Source: Singulisphaera sp. (GTDB lineage: Bacteria > Planctomycetota > Planctomycetia > Isosphaerales > Isosphaeraceae). From it: a stretch of 42,397 bases of DNA. This document shows, in pieces, positions 17,533-32,927 of this stretch. Below the pieces are notes generated by a model. It saw nothing but the letters and a program-made list of their open reading frames with translations, was not told where the DNA came from and did no database searches. Both the position numbers and the translations under genes were made by a program. Positions within the stretch are counted from its first letter, which is position 1; the number at the start of each line of letters is the position of its first letter. The stretch spans positions 1 to 42,397 of the forward strand of contig DAIDJG010000063.1 in the NCBI GenBank assembly GCA_027451445.1. The letters are read 5' to 3'.

Positions 17533-17833
17533 GAGACTCAACAGCCAAAGGCAACGAACCGCCAAGACGCCAAGAACGCCGAGGATAGTAACCAAACAAT
17601 GAAGTGCTCATGCGATGTTAAATAAAACATTTTTGTGATAAAACTTTTGGTTCCACGGACCTCCACGCAAAAGCCCAGAATACAGTTCATTCGCAGATGA
17701 CACAGATTAATGCAGATACGGACGATCAGGAAATCCTTAATCTCAAATCTGCGTAAATCTGCGTCATCTGCGGATAACTCTCTTGCTTTTCTCCGCGTTC
17801 TCGGCGTCTTGGCGGTTCGTTCCCAATTCGCCG
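17533..17833. other. Intergenic region almost wholly made of repeats
   Basis: About 300 bases between two leftward genes. Nearly all of it is the nested inverted-repeat element described at 17553-17821. The rest is AT-rich (17600-17660) and may hold the promoter of the small leftward gene. Confidence 0.5.
17553..17821. repeat. Nested palindromic element with 19-bp perfect terminal inverted repeats
   Basis: The outer arms AACGAACCGCCAAGACGCC (17553-17571) and their exact reverse complement (17803-17821) bound a 269-bp unit. Inside lies a second, related-in-style inverted repeat: TCGCAGATGACACAGATTAA (from about 17692) opposite reverse-complemented CCGCAGATGACGCAGATTTA (about 17755-17774). The centre is AT-rich (AAACATTTTTGTG near 17627). 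No open reading frame for a transposase is present. Such elements are presumably moved in trans or are structural. A stray outer arm occurs at 11622. Confidence 0.7.
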
Positions 17834-20161
17834 TCACTTCGCTGAGTTCTTCACCTCACCCGTGGCCGCCCATTCGACTCCGCGACGGAGCCAGATCTGG
17901 TAGTTGGGGTCGGACATCGCCGCCGTGTCGTGACCGAGTGCGTTGTTGAAGACACGTCCCTTGCCGTAGGTGTTCACCCAGATCACCGGCTCGTCCTTGT
18001 CCGTTCCTTTCGGCTTCTTCGGGTCTGAGAAGGCGGTCGCCAGCACCGTGGTGCCCGGGAAGAGCAGTGAGTTCTGGTAGAGTTCGTCGATCACGTGGTC
18101 AAACGTCGCAGGAGCGCCGTCCGAGATCGGATGCTTGGCCTCGGTCCGTTTTACCACGAATTCGTGCTTCGGCCCGTGGAATCCTTGCGTGCGCCAGCCG
18201 CCGGCGATCGCGCGTTCAAATTCTTCCCAGTTCGGCTTCGCGAATGCGGCCGACGCGAAGTGATGGACGACCAGTCCCTTGCCACCATCATGCACAGCCT
18301 TCAGGAAGGCCTTCTTGTTGTCGTCCGACCACTTGGTGTCCTCGGCGCCTTGCGGCGTCTCCTTGTAGTTCAGGAGTAGGACATCGTACTTGGCGAGGTT
18401 CTCGTCGTTGAGGTCCTTGGCCGGCGTGGCGGTGGATTCGACGACGACGCGATCCTTCGCGGACAGGATCTCCGTGAGCGCCTGGGTCGTTCCTTTCCAG
18501 TCGTGTGCGCCGACGTTATCGCCGGTGATGATCAGCACCTTGATCGGCTGTGAGCCGCTGGCTGTCTTGGGCTCTTCCTTCTTCGCGGCGGCCTCGGCCG
18601 ACAACTCCGCCAGTGCGATTGGCCCAAAGGCGGGTACGGCCATGTCGAAGCCGTCGACGAGATTGCAGTAGGGGTTGAGACCATGTCCGTACCAGAGGTT
18701 GGCGTTGGCGGGGATCGCGCCGGTCAGCTTGAGGACGACGGTGTCCTTCGCGTTGCCAATGGCGGCCTCGAAGATCAAGGGAATTTCCTTGCCTTCGCCA
18801 TCGCGGATCGAGAACCCCGCGATATGGGTCGCCGGCTTCAGCCCGACGGGACCGGAATGGCCAGGACTCATCGAGCCCATCATCCCCATCATCGCGCCGC
18901 TCTGGCCCCCGGCTCCTTTCATCATGCCGGGCATCCCCGCCATGCCGGTTCCTCGGGCCGCCGTCATGTTCACACCCTTGAACTTGACGACCAGGGTGTT
19001 GCTCGGCCCCTTGATGACCCGCTCGAGCGTGGGCGTCGTTGCACCAACTTCACCAAAAAGCTCGCGCAACGCGATCTGCGCCAGCCGGTTCCCCGCGCGT
19101 TTGAGGCCCTGCGTCCCCACGTGAATGGCGTCGTCGAGCTCGAGGTCGATGACAGAGATCACGGCCGTATTCGGTACCCGATCGGGGAGGAGTCGCTGCA
19201 CCTCTTGAACGGTGTTCCACCCTTTAGGATCCGAGCTGTTGATAAAGCGGCCGATCTGGACGTAGTAGAACGGCAGCTCGGATTGGTGCAGATCCTCGCG
19301 TACGGCGGCGATGAGGTTCGTGAAGTTCTTGTTGTAGGAATCGGCCCCGCCTCCCAGGGCGTCGCTTTCACCCTGATACCAGAGGACACCGGCAAAGCGA
19401 TCGCCCGCGAGCTTGAGCTGGCGAAGCATCGAGCCATAAAGGCTGTTGCCTCCCTCGCCCTTCTTGTCGGGGCTCCACTGGGCGAGGCTCGTACCACCGT
19501 GGGCGCAGGCGATCAGACCGATGGGGACACTCGTCCGCTGCGCCAACGTTACAGCGAACGGCAGACCCAGTCCCGCCCCTTTGGAGCGGCTCTTGTGCTG
19601 GGCGGTCGAGCGCTCGGCGCGTGTCTTCGGGTCGCCCGAGTGGACTGGGTCGGGCGAATCGACGAGCCAGTGCAGCGGTTCCTCCGCCTGCGACCACTTG
19701 CCGTCCATGCCCAGGAGCATCACATTCGGGTGGCTCGGGGTGACGTCGATCAGGTTGCCGACGCCTTCCATGTTCGACTGGCCGGCGAGGATCCAGAGAT
19801 CGCCGACGAAGATGGGACCGACGTTCACCAATCCCACCCCGTCGTCCCCCTTAACGTGGCACGCAATTCGGTACGGACCGCCGGTGGGAACACCAACGAG
19901 TTTGCCATCCTCGAAGCGCGCGCCCTCGATCACCTCGTTGCCCATGCCCGACAGCGTGGCGCCGGTGATTGACGTGTTCTTGTGGTCGTCGTCGAGCACC
20001 AACGGAATCACCGCCCTCCCGCCTCGATCGCGCTGATAGACGCGGTGGGCCACCGGTTCCTTCAATTGCAATTCCGCGCGAGCCGACGATTCGAGCCAGG
20101 GCAGCAGCAACAAGAGCGCCAGCATCCAGCGGCCGGCGCGGGTCACGAGGCGGCGTGCCAT
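17834..20161 (-). CDS. Secreted sialate O-acetylesterase (SASA) fused to a ThuA domain
   Basis: 775 residues from an ATG preceded by GGAG; the 13 codons upstream are dispensable. Residues 1-29 are a signal peptide. Residues about 115-370 form the SASA esterase: GDLWILAGQSNMEG places the catalytic Ser at 129, ACAHGGTSLAQW is the oxyanion loop, LWYQGESD is conserved, and DDAIHVGTQG gives Asp343/344 and His347. Residues 404-434 are a methionine/glycine-rich insert (MAGMPGMMKG, GAMMGMMGSM). Residues about 539-770 are ThuA, a glutamine-amidotransferase-like fold: KVLIITGDNVGAHDWKGT, VVHHFASAAF, PVIWVNTYGKGRVFNNALGHD. SASA domains deacetylate sugars; ThuA domains are linked to sugar utilisation. 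The combination suggests a periplasmic glycan-processing protein (inferred). Confidence 0.85.
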   Translation of the reverse strand: MARRLVTRAGRWMLALLLLLPWLESSARAELQLKEPVAHRVYQRDRGGRAVIPLVLDDDHKNTSITGATLSGMGNEVIEGARFEDGKLVGVPTGGPYRIACHVKGDDGVGLVNVGPIFVGDLWILAGQSNMEGVGNLIDVTPSHPNVMLLGMDGKWSQAEEPLHWLVDSPDPVHSGDPKTRAERSTAQHKSRSKGAGLGLPFAVTLAQRTSVPIGLIACAHGGTSLAQWSPDKKGEGGNSLYGSMLRQLKLAGDRFAGVLWYQGESDALGGGADSYNKNFTNLIAAVREDLHQSELPFYYVQIGRFINSSDPKGWNTVQEVQRLLPDRVPNTAVISVIDLELDDAIHVGTQGLKRAGNRLAQIALRELFGEVGATTPTLERVIKGPSNTLVVKFKGVNMTAARGTGMAGMPGMMKGAGGQSGAMMGMMGSMSPGHSGPVGLKPATHIAGFSIRDGEGKEIPLIFEAAIGNAKDTVVLKLTGAIPANANLWYGHGLNPYCNLVDGFDMAVPAFGPIALAELSAEAAAKKEEPKTASGSQPIKVLIITGDNVGAHDWKGTTQALTEILSAKDRVVVESTATPAKDLNDENLAKYDVLLLNYKETPQGAEDTKWSDDNKKAFLKAVHDGGKGLVVHHFASAAFAKPNWEEFERAIAGGWRTQGFHGPKHEFVVKRTEAKHPISDGAPATFDHVIDELYQNSLLFPGTTVLATAFSDPKKPKGTDKDEPVIWVNTYGKGRVFNNALGHDTAAMSDPNYQIWLRRGVEWAATGEVKNSAK

Positions 20162-20314
20162 CGGGTTGTTTCTCCGGGAGAGTCGACAAAAGGGACCCAA
20201 GACGCGAGCGCCCTGCGCCGCGCGCTCTCATCGTAAAGGGGACAAGGGGATGGCGAAAGAGGCTGGAGGCCCGAAAAATAGGGGCCTTTGCGACGTACTT
20301 TGATTTACGAAACC

Positions 20315-20319
20315 GGAGG
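20315..20319 (+). promoter_or_regulatory. Shine-Dalgarno GGAGG defining a TTG start
   Basis: GGAGG followed by six bases and TTG (20326). It fixes the start of the MFS/spermidine-synthase-like gene at residue L-S-W-L-F-G. No ATG or GTG in frame nearby is as well placed, and the open frame upstream is antisense to the esterase gene. Confidence 0.65.
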
Positions 20320-20325
20320 CCCGAC

Positions 20326-22833
20326 TTGTCCTGGCTCTTTGGCCTGACACTCTTCGTCAGTGCCGCCCTGCTCTTCGCCGCACAACCCATGATCGCGAAA
20401 TCGCTCTTACCGGTGTGGGGCGGGTCGCCTTCGGTCTGGAACGCGTGCATGGTTTTTTTTCAGGCCATGCTTCTGGCAGGCTACACCTACGCGCATGCCA
20501 CGACCGCCTGGTTCGGCGCGAGACGCCAGGCGTGGCTGCACGTGGTGCTCTTGCTGCTCCCCTGGGCGTTCTTACCGTTCGCGGTACAGGCACCAATGAC
20601 ACCCGCGTCTGCGCCGCCGGTCGTGCGGCTCTTGACGCATCTATGTGTCACCGTGGGAATCCCCTTCTTCGTCGTGGCCACAACGGCGCCACTCTTGCAG
20701 CGCTGGTTCGCCGAGGCGGCGCATCTTGAGGCGCGCGACCCCTATCCGCTTTACGCGGCGAGCAATTTCGGCAGCTTGATCGCGCTCCTGGCCTACCCGC
20801 TGATCATCGAGCCGAATCTGGGGCTGAGGCGTCAGGAGGTCGTTTGGGCTGTCGGGTATGCAGTGCTGGTGGTGTTGGCGGCCGTATGTGCGGTCGTGAT
20901 GAGGCGTGGCCGCCGGGATGATGACGATTCCCTGAAATCTCTCCGTACAACGAGTGAACCCGGCCCGTCACCCCCTCGACCCCCAACATGCGTTGACTTA
21001 GCGCAGTCCCCCAATCCCCCTCGTCCAAAAAGAACATATAACTCCCCCCCTTGGGAAGGGGGGGTAGGGGGGGTGGAGAGTCAGCGCTCGTATGCGGCTG
21101 ATCCCGCGGCCCCTCAACCTTTAAGTGCAGGAGAGCGGTTCGCGGTGGAATTGCACGAAACGGACGGCGAACGCCCACCCCCCCTTCCCCAGGGGGGGAG
21201 TTATATGGATTTCGCGGAGCGGTCCCACGCCCTACGCTTTGCGCGGTGGGTCGCGCTGGCGTTTGTTCCCTCAAGCTGGCTTCTTGGGGTCACGACGTAC
21301 CTGACGACCGACATCGCCCCCGTCCCTTTGCTTTGGGTAGTGCCGCTGGCGCTCTACCTGTTGTCCTTCATCCTGGTCTTCGCCCGTACGAGCCGCTTGA
21401 GCTACGCGCTCGGCGCGCGTGCGTTGCCACTGCTGGCGTTTCCGTTGGCCCTGGTGCTTGGACTGGGACTGGCCCAAGCATTCTGGCTGCCACTGCACCT
21501 GCTGACGTTCTTCGCAGGTGCCCTCGTCTGTCACGGCGCGCTCGCACGCGATCGCCCCGACCCGCAACGGTTGACTGAGTTCTACCTGGCCCTCGCGCTG
21601 GGCGGAGTGCTCGGCGGACTCTTCAACGCGCTCATTGCCCCCTCGATCTTCAACCGGCTCACGGAGTATCCCCTCGCCGTGGTCCTGGGATGCCTGGCGT
21701 TACCTCGTGTGTCGACGAAGTCATTCCCCCTGCCTCGCGCCTGGCAAACAGCCAGCCGGTACTCGCTCTGGGGACTGCCGCTGCTCATCTTCGGACTGAT
21801 TGCCTTGCTGGTGCGCGATGCGGAAGGTATCGCGATGACCGCGGCGGGCGCACTTCTGGAGCTGCTGGCGTCGGGACTCGTTGTTTACGTGTGGTACCGG
21901 CATCGGCGCCGACCGATCCGCTTCGCCCTGGGGATGGGGGCAGCCTTGCTCGCGAGTGGTCTATCGAACGGCCCGGGGGGCCAGCCTTTGTTTCGCGAAC
22001 GAAACTTCTATGGCACGGCAAGGGTCACGGCAGAGCTCACGCCCCTGGGCGAGTTTCATCGCCTGTTTCATGGCAACACGCTCCATGGACAGCAGAACTT
22101 CGATCCCGCACTACGGCGGGATGCGCTTGCCTACTTCCACCGGACTGGTCCGATTGGACAGATCCTCATGTCGCCGCAGGTCCGGCCTAGCGTAGCGATC
22201 GTGGGGCTCGGAACGGGCTCGCTCGCAGCCTATGCGAAGCACAACGAGCGCTGGACGTTTTACGAGATCGACCCCGCAGTGATTCGAGTGGCCGGCGACC
22301 CTCGCTATTTCACCTTCCTGGGCGATTGCAAGGCCTCGCACGTGGAGGTCCTGGAAGGCGACGCCCGGCTTCGACTGCGCGAGGCGACCAAACATGAGTT
22401 CGCCCTGATCGTGCTCGACGTGTTTAGCTCCGACGCGATCCCGACCCACCTGCTTACGCGCGAGGCCTTCGCGCTCTACCGCGCGAAACTCGCGAAGGGA
22501 GGCCTGATCGCCTTCCACATCACGAACCGTTACCTCGACCTCGAGCCCGTCGTCGGCGCCGGCGCGCGCGACGCGGGGATGGTTTGCCGAGTGCGTTACG
22601 ATCTGACCCTCACCGACGAAGAGAAACGCGAGGGAAAGCAGCCGTCGATCTGGGCCGTGCTCGCGACACATGAGGAAGACTTCGGTGCGATCGCGCACGA
22701 TCCGCGTTGGCGTCCCGCTCGTGTTCCCTCGGGAACGCGGTCGTGGAGCGACGACTTCTCCGATCCCGCAAGCCACCTGGTCTTCCGTCGCGGGTTCCGA
22801 ATCGCACGGGCGCCGACCGTTCCCCAACGTTAA
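20326..22833 (+). CDS. Fused MFS-type membrane / spermidine-synthase-like protein carrying an in-frame repeat insert
   Basis: 835 residues from a TTG with an ideal GGAGG. Residues 1-200 and about 305-590 hold many membrane helices: FGLTLFVSAALLFAAQPMIAKSLLP is the family's opening, and YAASNFGSLIALLAYP and LGVTTYLTTDIAPVPLLWV are hallmarks of planctomycete fused MFS/spermidine synthases. Residues about 620-800 are a Rossmann methyltransferase/spermidine-synthase-like domain: VAIVGLGTGSLAAY (627), FYEIDPAVIRVA, VLEGDARLRL, LIVLDVFSSDAIPTHLL. Catalysis is unproven for the fused family. Residues 238-293 (TYNSPPWEGG to QGGSY) are a palindromic element lying in a cytoplasmic loop between helices. 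Its Pro/Gly-rich content is unlike its surroundings, and the frame is intact on both sides. Confidence 0.85.
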   Translation: MSWLFGLTLFVSAALLFAAQPMIAKSLLPVWGGSPSVWNACMVFFQAMLLAGYTYAHATTAWFGARRQAWLHVVLLLLPWAFLPFAVQAPMTPASAPPVVRLLTHLCVTVGIPFFVVATTAPLLQRWFAEAAHLEARDPYPLYAASNFGSLIALLAYPLIIEPNLGLRRQEVVWAVGYAVLVVLAAVCAVVMRRGRRDDDDSLKSLRTTSEPGPSPPRPPTCVDLAQSPNPPRPKRTYNSPPWEGGVGGVESQRSYAADPAAPQPLSAGERFAVELHETDGERPPPLPQGGSYMDFAERSHALRFARWVALAFVPSSWLLGVTTYLTTDIAPVPLLWVVPLALYLLSFILVFARTSRLSYALGARALPLLAFPLALVLGLGLAQAFWLPLHLLTFFAGALVCHGALARDRPDPQRLTEFYLALALGGVLGGLFNALIAPSIFNRLTEYPLAVVLGCLALPRVSTKSFPLPRAWQTASRYSLWGLPLLIFGLIALLVRDAEGIAMTAAGALLELLASGLVVYVWYRHRRRPIRFALGMGAALLASGLSNGPGGQPLFRERNFYGTARVTAELTPLGEFHRLFHGNTLHGQQNFDPALRRDALAYFHRTGPIGQILMSPQVRPSVAIVGLGTGSLAAYAKHNERWTFYEIDPAVIRVAGDPRYFTFLGDCKASHVEVLEGDARLRLREATKHEFALIVLDVFSSDAIPTHLLTREAFALYRAKLAKGGLIAFHITNRYLDLEPVVGAGARDAGMVCRVRYDLTLTDEEKREGKQPSIWAVLATHEEDFGAIAHDPRWRPARVPSGTRSWSDDFSDPASHLVFRRGFRIARAPTVPQR
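21037..21204 (+). mobile_element. Coding-compatible palindromic element, copy 1 (in the MFS/spermidine-synthase gene)
   Basis: 168 bases, exactly 56 codons, bounded by TATAACTCCCCCCC and GGGGGGGAGTTAT. The ends are inverted repeats of about 30-40 bp that also fold on themselves (CCCCCCCTTGGGAAGGGGGGG is broken here only by length limits). The middle matches copy 2 at 30976-31152 along its length: GAGCGGTTCG versus GAGCAGTTCG, GTGGAATTG versus GCCGAATTG, CGGACGGC in both. Similarity extends to the left (CCAATCCCCCTCG versus CCAATCCCCTTCG). The right end lacks one 9-base TACCCCCCC unit present in copy 2, which removes three codons and keeps the frame. No transposase gene. Confidence 0.75.
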
Positions 22834-28941: not shown

Positions 28942-31900
28942 CTAAATCTCATTTCTTGACACGAGTTTCGCTTCCTCCGCGGTCAAACCGTAGAGTGCCG
29001 CGACCCGAGAGTTCAACTCGGCCTTCAGACAGTCTCCGTCGGTGTCTGGTTCCATTGACAGCCGCTCGGCCAGCCCGCCGATGATCGCCACATCGGCGGG
29101 GCTGGCTTGAACGATCGGCAGCGCACCCACGTACTGTGAGAATAGCCGCAGATAGCCTCCGCGAATCAATCGCACGGAGCCGCGAAGGTACCACCACAGC
29201 ACGTCCGAATGGAGCAGTCCCTGCAAGTAACGATCGGCGTCGGGCAGGAAGTAGGTCGTGTTACCACAGAGGTGCCCCAGCTCGTCGAAGACGAACCGGG
29301 GCCGGATTGTGATATCCGGATAGAGCAGCTTGGGCCCACGAAGCGACGAGGCATAGGCACGTTGCGGCTGCTGGAGTTCGTACCACGCGTGTTGACGGCT
29401 CGTCGCCCTGCGTTCCAGCCGCTCACGGTAGCGTTCAAGGTGGGCGCGAATCGCCGGATAACGGTCGATCGCGATCCCACGATCCGCGTGGATGAGCCAC
29501 AGCCCTCGCCACTTCGCGCGCCAGGCCAGCAGATCTTTCCCTTCGAGGTACGGTCTCAGTATCTCGGCGCAATTCGGGTCTTGATCGACGATGCGATCCC
29601 GTGTTGCCGTGTCGACGACGAACGCCTGGTTGAGGCCGGAAACGATCCCTCGTAGCGGATCGAAGCCGCAATAACTCGCGAGAGGAACACCTCGTTGCTG
29701 AACCTTGTCGCGCAGCCTTGCGGCAACGCAGCCTGCAAAGGTCCAGCCGGTGGATTCCAGATCCGCCTGCCTCACGAAAACGGGAGCTGATTTCGCGCCG
29801 CGGTTCCGGTTCGTTACATCGTTCTCGCCGACAATTGTGCTCTCCAGGACTTGGTCGGCCGGGGGCACCTGGCGACTGGCGACGAGAATGCACGCGTAGG
29901 TCGTGGCATGTTCGAAGAGAGGAAGGTCGCCGAAGTCGATGAAGCTGTGCAGCGCCGTCTCGGCCTTTAGGAACTCGCGTAACCCCTCGCCTGCCTTGGT
30001 CTTCGTCCAGGTGCTCGGCGCGATCAGGGCGAGCCTTCCTCCTGCGCGCAGAAGGCGAATGGAACGCTCGTAGAAATAAATGAATAAATCGGACCGTTCC
30101 GCGTGACAACGGTAATGTTTCCGGAGGAAGGGTTTCAACGGCTTGATGAGTTCCATCCTCACATAGGGTGGGTTGCCGATAACCGCATCGAAGCCCGTGG
30201 CCGTGTGGGCCGGATAAGTTGCGCCCATGGGGTCGCGAAAGACGTCGGGGAATTCAAGATCCCAGTGGAAGGGCCGTGTTTGGCGAGCGAAGCTCTCGGC
30301 ATCGGAGGTTCCGAAATCCTCTGCGACACGTAGATCGAGCGCGCGTCTGGCCTCGGAGGGCTCGTTCACCGGGTGATCCAAATCTTTTACTGACAGCCCA
30401 AGGAGAGAGTCACCAATCCGAACATGTTGATTGAGACCGCTTAGACGCAGGTGTGGCACAGCCGCATCAAGCCAGAGGGTCGCCTTCGCCAACTCTACCG
30501 CCATCGGGTCGCGGTCGACGCCGTAAACACACCGTTCGAGAAGTTGGTACTTGAGCAGGCGGCCCTCGGTGAGTTGAGTTGAATCGATGGTGAGACCGCG
30601 CTCGGTCAGTGAGTCAACGATGCTCTCGCGCCTACGATCGAGGAAGATCGAAACGGGGTTGATTGGAAACTCGTTCAGGAATGCAAGCATCCGTTCGGAG
30701 AGAAACGAAAGGGCTTCAACGAGGAAGTAACCACACCCGACCGCAGGATCAAGCACGCGCATGTCGAAGAGTTTCTCTGCCAAGCCGGGATGTTGGTTTT
30801 GCGCGTGCAGGAGGGCTCGGTGACTGGCGGACGTCAGAGCGCCGAGGCCTGTGCTCAACGCCGAACGGCTGCCCCTCCCCTCCGCAACTTCCGCAGGCGT
30901 TAACTCACACCTTAGTGCGTTCGGATTGTGCGCAGTGTCGCCGGTAACTTCGCCCTTCGGAACCCGGAGCACCTCATAACTCCCCCCCTTGGGAAGGGGG
31001 GGTAGGGGGGGTGGGCATTGGCCGTCCGATGAGTACAATTCGGCCTCGAACTGCTCACCTTTGCTTAACGGTCGAGGGGCGATTGGAGCAGCCGAATGCG
31101 GAAGCTTACTCCCCATCCCCCCTACCCCCCCTTCCCAAGGGGGGGAGTTATATGTTTCCATTTCGCGAAGGGGATTGGGAAACAATGCACCGATTTGGCC
31201 TGTTGTGTGACACTCAACCGTTACGCGTTCGAATTCTTCCGCTAGCCCGAATTCTTGCTCAAACGTGTCGCGAAATCGCTGAAATTCGGCCCGCAGCCGC
31301 TCCAGTTTTTCCGCAAGGACCGGGCCGACCGCCTGGGCGACGATATATCGGGTGATCGTAGCTGGCGTGTAGTAAGAACCCGACGCCTTTCGCTCGAACT
31401 TGACGGTCGAGAGGTAGACTCGCCCTTTCCGGACGACGACTTCATTGGGTTTTCTGCGTCCAGCCTTGGCCTGGGTCACGGGGACATAACGCTCACCAGA
31501 CTCGTCCGACCGGCGCATCAGGTCCTCGGAGGCAACCCGTAGCGTGCAATTCAGCAAACCTTCGTAGATCGCGCCGAGGGTTCGGACGTCCATTGATCGG
31601 TAATCGATAAACTGAAGCCCGATTGATGGTCCGGAGTCCTCGCGCGAGAGTCGATCGATCGCGCGGGCAAGCACGACATCGGGGACGTTGGAATCGTGCA
31701 GGACGCGCCCGTCACCGCGAGCAAGGACATTCGGCATCCTGTCGAACAGCACACGCAGCCGATCGTAAAGACATGTCTCGCGAGGCGAGTACACCTGTGC
31801 AATCTTCGAATCAGCCTCATCCAAGCGGTCGCCGGCCGCGTGCTTGATCTCCCGCCGGATCGCGGTGAGATGGTCACACCCCGGGGCAGAAGACGGATCG

Positions 31901-32229
31901 GCCCAAAGGTCGCGGCTTTCGGCGAAGAACAGGAAGAGGAGCCGAAAGAGGAGATCCCGCGTGGCTTCGTAAACCTCAGCGAGCACTCTTTCCGGCGGAC
32001 CACACTCTCCGTCCAGCCGGTCATCCCGCTGAGACAAAAACCCCTCGGCCAGCCACGGGAACACCGAGCGAATGATTTGCCGCTTGAGACGGGTACCTGC
32101 ATCCCCAGCCTGGTTCCGGTTCCCCGATGAGCGCAGGAGCAATGCCAAACCCCAAGGATCGGGCGTGATCGTCGAGCCGTCGCGTGGCAACCGTCGCTTT
32201 CCTCTCTCAGAGGCCGAGGTCGTCCGCAA
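28942..32229 (-). CDS. Type IIG-like N6-adenine DNA methylase, 5' end undefined, with in-frame repeat insert
   Basis: About 1095 residues if the TTG at 32229 is used. There is no ATG in the first 160 codons, so the true start is unknown and the N-terminus may be lost. Residues 80-225 match the helical middle of Eco57I/type IIG proteins (LLFRLLFLFFAESRDLW, DVRTLGAIYEGLL). SYYTPATITRYIVAQ near 285 precedes the methylase. VLDPAVGCGYFLVEAL at 492 is SAM motif I, and FDAVIGNPPYVRMELI at about 680 is the NPPY catalytic motif of N6-adenine methylases. The C-terminal ~250 residues resemble a target-recognition domain. A PD-(D/E)XK nuclease was not found. Residues 360-418 are the second copy of the palindromic element, and the flanks to about residue 470 also look atypical. 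Activity as restriction-modification or methylation only is unresolved. Confidence 0.75.
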   Translation of the reverse strand: MRTTSASERGKRRLPRDGSTITPDPWGLALLLRSSGNRNQAGDAGTRLKRQIIRSVFPWLAEGFLSQRDDRLDGECGPPERVLAEVYEATRDLLFRLLFLFFAESRDLWADPSSAPGCDHLTAIRREIKHAAGDRLDEADSKIAQVYSPRETCLYDRLRVLFDRMPNVLARGDGRVLHDSNVPDVVLARAIDRLSREDSGPSIGLQFIDYRSMDVRTLGAIYEGLLNCTLRVASEDLMRRSDESGERYVPVTQAKAGRRKPNEVVVRKGRVYLSTVKFERKASGSYYTPATITRYIVAQAVGPVLAEKLERLRAEFQRFRDTFEQEFGLAEEFERVTVECHTTGQIGALFPNPLREMETYNSPPWEGGVGGMGSKLPHSAAPIAPRPLSKGEQFEAELYSSDGQCPPPLPPLPKGGSYEVLRVPKGEVTGDTAHNPNALRCELTPAEVAEGRGSRSALSTGLGALTSASHRALLHAQNQHPGLAEKLFDMRVLDPAVGCGYFLVEALSFLSERMLAFLNEFPINPVSIFLDRRRESIVDSLTERGLTIDSTQLTEGRLLKYQLLERCVYGVDRDPMAVELAKATLWLDAAVPHLRLSGLNQHVRIGDSLLGLSVKDLDHPVNEPSEARRALDLRVAEDFGTSDAESFARQTRPFHWDLEFPDVFRDPMGATYPAHTATGFDAVIGNPPYVRMELIKPLKPFLRKHYRCHAERSDLFIYFYERSIRLLRAGGRLALIAPSTWTKTKAGEGLREFLKAETALHSFIDFGDLPLFEHATTYACILVASRQVPPADQVLESTIVGENDVTNRNRGAKSAPVFVRQADLESTGWTFAGCVAARLRDKVQQRGVPLASYCGFDPLRGIVSGLNQAFVVDTATRDRIVDQDPNCAEILRPYLEGKDLLAWRAKWRGLWLIHADRGIAIDRYPAIRAHLERYRERLERRATSRQHAWYELQQPQRAYASSLRGPKLLYPDITIRPRFVFDELGHLCGNTTYFLPDADRYLQGLLHSDVLWWYLRGSVRLIRGGYLRLFSQYVGALPIVQASPADVAIIGGLAERLSMEPDTDGDCLKAELNSRVAALYGLTAEEAKLVSRNEI
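30976..31152 (-). mobile_element. Coding-compatible palindromic element, copy 2 (in the methylase gene)
   Basis: 177 bases, 59 codons, ends TATAACTCCCCCCC (coding strand) and GGGGGGGAGTTAT. The inverted ends are near-perfect for about 35 bp and contain the extra TACCCCCCC unit missing in copy 1. It is inserted in the same orientation and frame as copy 1, so both hosts read TYNSPPWEGGVGG... and end PPLP...GGSY. The internal segment (APRPLSKGEQFEAEL versus APQPLSAGERFAVEL) is alignable throughout. It separates two conserved methylase segments, and further atypical sequence continues to the right (to about 30840), possibly another insertion. Confidence 0.75.
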
Positions 32230-32518: not shown

Positions 32519-32927
32519 GGCTGTGCGTCCACTCCAAGCCTGAGCCGTCGTTTCGGGGTCGGTCGAGGCGCTTCTCACGGAGGGGAACGGTCAACGTCGT
32601 CACGCGTCGCCGAGTGCTGCGCAGCGGGCGGTTGAAACCGCGATAAATCATAGCACAACCGATCGACAGGCGCCTTCAACAAGCACCGTTCGGGTCGACA
32701 TTGCCGCGCTTGACCGGGCGATCGTCGGGATTCTACCGACCGAAGCGACTTACAGTCTGTCCCAATAGCGCGGGAAGCGTGGAAATGGGGACTGGCTCCG
32801 GACGTCTTCGGACGGTGCCTGTCCCCATTTCCACGCTTCCCGCTCCGCCGGAAAACGGGGACAGGCACCTCGAAGACTCGGAGCCAGTCCCCGTTTTCCG
32901 GCTCCGCTCCACTTCCGGGACGGACTC
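32519..32927. other. Intergenic region with tandem hairpins
   Basis: About 409 bases. The right half (32770-32902) is two tandem long hairpins. The left half is ordinary GC-rich sequence with no gene or promoter recognised. Confidence 0.45.
32770..32902. repeat. Two tandem hairpins (REP/BIME-like) with mirrored loops
   Basis: Hairpin 1: 32770-32792 pairs perfectly over 23 bp with 32821-32843 (arm begins GCGGGAAGCGTGGAAATGGG). Hairpin 2: 32847-32862 pairs over 16 bp with 32887-32902 (arm GCCGGAAAACGGGGAC). The loops are near-complements of each other: CTGGCTCCGGACGTCTTCGG in loop 1 against reverse-complemented CTGGCTCCGAGTCTTCGAGG from loop 2. GGGGACTGGCTCC/GTGCCTGTCCCC units like these are dispersed in planctomycete genomes and resemble REP sequences mobilised by IS200-like RAYT enzymes (general knowledge). 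No RAYT gene is present here. Confidence 0.7.

Follow-up and report, generated by a model that had tools for sequence, protein, structure and literature searches.

The first protein-coding palindromes to be described were those of Rickettsia. The Rickettsia palindromic elements (RPE; Ogata et al. 2000, 2002) are palindromic sequences that lie in frame within genes (PMC2229807, PMC10969869), and their presence in guanylate kinase provides a precedent for an insert that is translated within an active host protein (PMC2229807). Here, we describe a repeat of a planctomycete, Singulisphaera sp., that resembles the RPE in being palindromic, MITE-sized, repeated and stop-free, in lying both in unrelated genes and between genes, and in being tolerated by the host protein. 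The RPE are approximately 105-150 bp long and reside in a reduced intracellular genome, whereas the present element is nested, measures approximately 309 bp and occupies a GC-rich genome of 10.9 Mb. It also differs from the RPE in a strong sense-strand bias and in the many copies that lie between a start codon and the core of a signal peptide.

Several other repeat families bear a partial likeness to this element. According to the portions of Delihas (2007, PMC2759123) drawn on here, the ERIC/RU-1, YPAL/RU-2 and RU-3 repeats of enterobacteria are likewise MITE-like, with an open frame that is fused to genes, in some cases as part of a signal peptide, and with TA termini in several families, but they are mostly intergenic and their fusions are often small hypothetical proteins; no genome-wide phase test is reported in those portions. 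The GTAG and CGTC families of REP/BIME sequences are also short, G/C-rich hairpins with many copies and several arrangements, some of them intragenic and in frame (PMC3733652). These, however, are units of 20-40 bp tied to RAYT (Y1) transposases, and the nine Y1_Tnp genes of the present genome have no copy of the element's arm nearby. The coding palindromes of Nematomorpha mitochondria are long, translated inverted repeats as well, but they are perfect repeats within mitochondrial genes and not a dispersed mobile family (PMC6649704). The literature searched yielded no report of palindromic repeats lying in frame in Planctomycetes.

The Singulisphaera repeat adds a new family to a known class, the RPE-like protein-coding palindromes. 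This likeness, which had been proposed from the letters of the two founding copies (hereafter the sequence-only reading), is upheld by the dispersal of the repeat, its stop-free insertion in frame and its absence in orthologues; its sequence is apparently different from that of the RPE. The same outcome as in Rickettsia is thus reached with an apparently unrelated sequence in a large genome, and the copy number suffices for frame, strand and selection to be tested statistically.

Two copies in the window and the architecture of the family

The window is a stretch of 42,397 nucleotides and contains two homologous segments with palindromic ends. The core of copy A, consisting of arm, centre and arm, occupies positions 21037-21204 of the + strand (168 bp) and is open and in frame in host gene A; that of copy B occupies positions 30976-31152 of the - strand (177 bp, 59 codons) and is in frame in host gene B. 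Copy A has inverted-repeat ends of 34 nt that agree at 94%, and those of copy B extend over 53 nt with 87% identity. The left G/C-rich arm of copy A (ATAACTCCCCCCCTTGGGAAGGGGGGGTAGGGGGGGTGG, 21038-21076, + strand) is identical to positions 30976-31014, and inverted-repeat analysis and alignment place its right arm, which is shorter by one 9-nt unit, at 21174-21204 (+ strand). The arm occurs four times in the window, where 0.00 occurrences are expected. The two copies agree in orientation and in frame relative to their host genes, both read TYNSPPWEGGVGG...GGSY, and they differ in length by a single 9-nt unit, so that the initial description of two related inserts in two unrelated genes, differing by exactly three codons, proved accurate.

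The limits first assigned to the element did not hold. The 168-177 bp segments are only the core of a nested palindrome, and modules of approximately 60-65 nt on each side of it are repeated as well. To the left of copy A, the outer module GCGTTGACTTAGCGC...CCCAATCCCCCTCGTCC...GAACAT (20990-21036, + strand), read as VDLAQSPNPPRPKRT, resembles the modules left of three other copies (L027, L028, L014); this stretch is missing from homologues and is probably part of the insertion. Copy B is followed on the sense side by GGSYEVLRVPKGEVTGDTAHNPNALRC, with a GGCGTTAAC end (30894-30975, - strand), which matches the TAGAGCGG outer module weakly and has a shared tail peptide, and is preceded by a module read as PNPLREMET (31153-31179, - strand). 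All outer-module boundaries of the two copies were placed by inference and are approximate. The predicted element-derived peptide in host A or in secreted hosts includes (R)SYAADPAAPQPLSAGER.

Throughout the 10.9 Mb genome, a 23-base pattern of the arm has 296 sites, and the reversed control pattern has none. Approximately 120 regions were fetched and 44 distinct complete type-1 copies were aligned, a set that is large but not complete. The arm is shared by several arrangements: type 1 (157-180 bp, as in the window), 197-bp units, units of 259-423 bp, back-to-back pairs and single arms. Two of the 197-bp arrangements (L049, L078) lie between convergent genes, unlike type 1. The full type-1 element ends in TAGAGCGG...CCGCTCTA, and its consensus is 311 bp with both copies of a terminal TA, or 309 bp net (103 codons) if TA is a target duplication. 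These TA ends may represent a target-site duplication; the outer ends are often degenerate, and base-level comparison of filled and empty sites gave no clean duplication.

Type 1 comprises two subfamilies, with 176 or 175 nt between the arm ends. The 175-nt subfamily was for a time regarded as non-coding, a view that was dropped once another of its frames was seen to be open and continuous with starts upstream. The openness is due to its left end, where ATTACT takes the place of ATAACT and TAA thereby becomes TTA. The predicted fold of the consensus RNA has a free energy of -204.5 kcal/mol (z = -11.8), and hairpins of the family range from z = -10.7 to -11.8. The TAGAGCGG...CCGCTCTA ends are common to elements of differing content, as in MITEs, and two MITEs with the same TAGAGCGGTTTACG ends (L054, 3502-3732; L103, 35-260) enclose a different inner palindrome. 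Between copies the arms (33-40 bp) are 95-97% identical and the centres approximately 79%, in genic and non-genic copies alike, whereas the putative terminal repeats are only 60-70% conserved. The better conservation of the arms than of the terminal repeats goes unexplained under a simple MITE model. An origin from RAYT/REP sequences was considered and rejected: no arm lies within the 1.9-3.3 kb around each of the nine Y1_Tnp genes, and no TAGAGCGG pair was found there, one lone end excepted.

Empty sites and host proteins

Host gene A (19969-22833, + strand) encodes a multi-helix membrane protein of 954 amino acids with a C-terminal alpha/beta domain, which has no Pfam match and is spermidine-synthase-like in its sequence motifs. 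In the predicted structure, the insert region (residues 240-314) has pLDDT values of 31-50 and falls between helices at residues 192-232 and 318-355. The insert is therefore most likely a disordered loop between two helices in the model, in keeping with the tolerant position that had been surmised for it. Host gene B (28942-32229, - strand) encodes an Eco57I-type DNA methyltransferase of 1095 amino acids (PF07669, TaqI_C PF12950), whose methyltransferase domain lies downstream of the insert.

The segment is absent from the homologues of these hosts, as expected from the sequence-only reading. None of 11 homologues of host A carries it, members of the same genus included, and it is missing from a paralogue of host B in the same genome (L152) and from three further homologues. 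Uninterrupted versions of the PMT_2 hosts (L028, L036) are found in several relatives. Empty sites also occur at gene starts. In the same-genus genome G001, the homologue of L008 lacks the element and keeps the start ATG, which lies upstream of the insertion point; the N-terminus is MSATRRNR followed by the element in the one and MSAPLRQR in the other. This ATG apparently overlaps the stop codon of the preceding gene (ATGA). The G001 homologue of L095 also keeps its start region, but a different palindromic repeat sits there. Among 40 relatives the short arm was found in G001, G005, G007 and G035 only, and the full 177-bp core in its own genome only. Scans of approximately 85,000 species genomes with a DNA pattern and a peptide profile of the type-1 core, from which its own and very near genomes may have been excluded, gave no match outside its own genome.

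The host proteins belong to known families, among them planctomycete-type ones such as PSCyt1/2 and DUF1501. Approximately 11 in-frame copies are internal to genes, and at least 10 internal hosts belong to different families. These insertions fall in loops or linkers of GT87 and PMT_2 membrane glycosyltransferases, a polyketide synthase, an ATP-grasp protein, methyltransferases and host A. One copy, in a PMT_2 glycosyltransferase (L027), is antisense, yet in frame. At the N-terminus, the element separates the start codon from the hydrophobic core of the signal peptide, as in L008, L095, L012, L019, L032 and L105; these secreted or lipoprotein signal peptides were judged by eye.

Strand, phase and selection on the encoded peptide

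The strand and phase of the sequence downstream of each copy were read with a codon model trained on the long open frames of these same loci. Gene calls were made in this analysis, the distinction between genic and non-genic copies rests on that model, and several categories were set by eye. Among the 31 type-1 copies with a readable downstream flank, 27 are codirectional with the gene (p = 1.7e-5), and 23 of these 27 are in phase and open into it (p = 4e-8). Unrelated genes carry more than half of the complete copies, internally or at their start, in sense orientation and in frame. The bias in frame and strand that two copies had suggested is thus strong across the genome, and it persists when the two window copies are removed and only copies with the exact arm pattern are counted (17/21, p = 1e-5). 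Other architectures with the same arm served as a control and show no bias (6/19).

It had been proposed that the mobile unit is selected to read as protein. A mobile, sense, in-frame palindrome is borne out by these data, but selection on the sequence of the peptide is not. In the centre of the element, divergence at codon positions 1, 2 and 3 is 0.194, 0.185 and 0.204 across 25 in-phase copies. The corresponding values are 0.227, 0.200 and 0.197 for 10 internal copies versus 0.242, 0.199 and 0.219 for the rest, among which N-terminal copies in frame were later recognized. Synonymous and non-synonymous changes in the internal set of 10 number 49:136, against a neutral expectation of 54:126. 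Purifying selection on the peptide was rejected, and the amino-acid sequence is not conserved, because codon positions diverge equally and the ratio of synonymous to non-synonymous changes is neutral. The open frame of the consensus was likewise set aside as weak proof of selection, since 39% of shuffled consensus sequences are stop-free in some frame. Indels in the 10 internal copies are multiples of three, and the constraint on genic copies is the avoidance of stops and frameshifts only.

Spread and retention of the repeat

We favor, with a probability of about 0.8, the explanation that the repeat is a selfish, non-autonomous, MITE-like palindrome that has multiplied in one species, and that its in-phase sense copies in genes are kept and translated as disordered insertions. 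The palindrome would have spread by transposition, each full insertion adding 309 bp should the terminal TA be duplicated target sequence, with one frame of the sense strand open from end to end. A copy landing in coding sequence in the sense orientation and in phase would spare the gene and be retained, giving rise to a disordered insertion in a loop, in an inter-domain linker or in the stretch from the start codon to the signal-peptide core; copies in other phases would persist only between genes. The DNA would be tolerated in genes because it is readable, and would survive because it is harmless to the fold. The insert would be translated as an extra, apparently functionless peptide.

Readability, together with sense orientation and a target bias toward 5' ends, might itself be a selected trait of the mobile unit and not a filter acting after the fact, a possibility that we consider doubtful. 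If so, the one-base difference in the centre of the two subfamilies and the change from TAA to TTA at the left end would have the consequence that each subfamily keeps one frame open and in phase. The palindromic repeat of G001, though different, has the same tendency: in a small sample, 9/9 copies are codirectional with the downstream gene and 7/9 share one phase with it.

The element might alternatively be used as a portable 5' leader, with copies at gene starts supplying translation initiation or mRNA structure. On the sense strand, an AGGAG-like site stands 8 nt ahead of a GTG that is in frame (GCAGGAGAGCGGTTCGTGGCT) and that is replaced by ATG in L010 and L053, and the tail has further in-frame GTG or ATG codons; the consensus hairpin is very stable (-204 kcal/mol, z = -11.8). 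When internal insertions are left out, 14 of 18 codirectional copies keep the phase of the gene downstream (p = 1.4e-4). Additionally, four in-phase 5' copies (L010, L034, L045, L053) carry stops in the centre that block read-through from upstream, an observation that counts against the preferred explanation; translation there would have to begin within the element or after it. However, whether or not a copy is in phase, its codon positions are flat across the region of the internal start, the native starts of L008 and L095 lie upstream of the element and are conserved in G001, and a leader role would be senseless for the copies internal to genes. We therefore regard a leader function as improbable.

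Still less likely is an ordinary intergenic repeat, whose 5' copies would be untranslated and in frame only through mis-called starts and whose internal copies would be lucky survivors. REP-type repeats are mostly intergenic, and N-terminal REPs elsewhere often lie outside the true gene (PMC3733652), but a repeat of this kind should fall in random phase, contrary to the 23/27 copies in phase overall and the 14/18 without internal copies; the conserved native starts upstream of the element in L008 and L095 and the lack of bias in repeats with the same arm also speak against it.

Removal of the insert, by ribosomal bypass of the hairpin or by excision at the RNA or protein level to give a mature protein without it, is scarcely credible: the extreme hairpin would suit it, as would an Eco57I-type methyltransferase paralogue of host B (L156; G000:C72, 2-2590; open frame of 863 codons) in which two copies lie in frame, one inside the span of the Pfam methyltransferase domain match, but removal would make stops and frame irrelevant, whereas genic copies avoid the former and keep the latter, and no intein, intron or bypass signature was recognized in the sequence.

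Under the preferred explanation of a selfish palindrome retained where it can be read, in-frame selfish DNA is predicted to add 50-100 residues to signal-peptide regions, loops of membrane proteins and linkers of enzymes within one species, and to do so with no visible selection on the peptide. The set of insertions is a natural catalogue of protein positions that tolerate them, and the parallel repeat of G001 makes general in-frame targeting of 5' ends a testable question.

Some further repeats were observed in these genomes. The G001 repeat, of CCTCTCCCCTTGCGGGAGAGG type, forms a family there and is in frame at the N-terminal site equivalent to that of L095 (L188, G001:C39); a similar-looking G001 repeat is present in the loop of a host A homologue (L121). 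Within the window, positions 17550-17591 and 17783-17824 form a separate inverted repeat (42 nt, 86%) whose motif, CGCCAAGACGCCAAG, resembles one upstream of a G001 gene (L192). Finally, positions 32770-32843 contain a hairpin, with a 12-nt spacing between 31-nt arms that are 94% complementary; an inverted copy related to it occupies positions 32879-32903.
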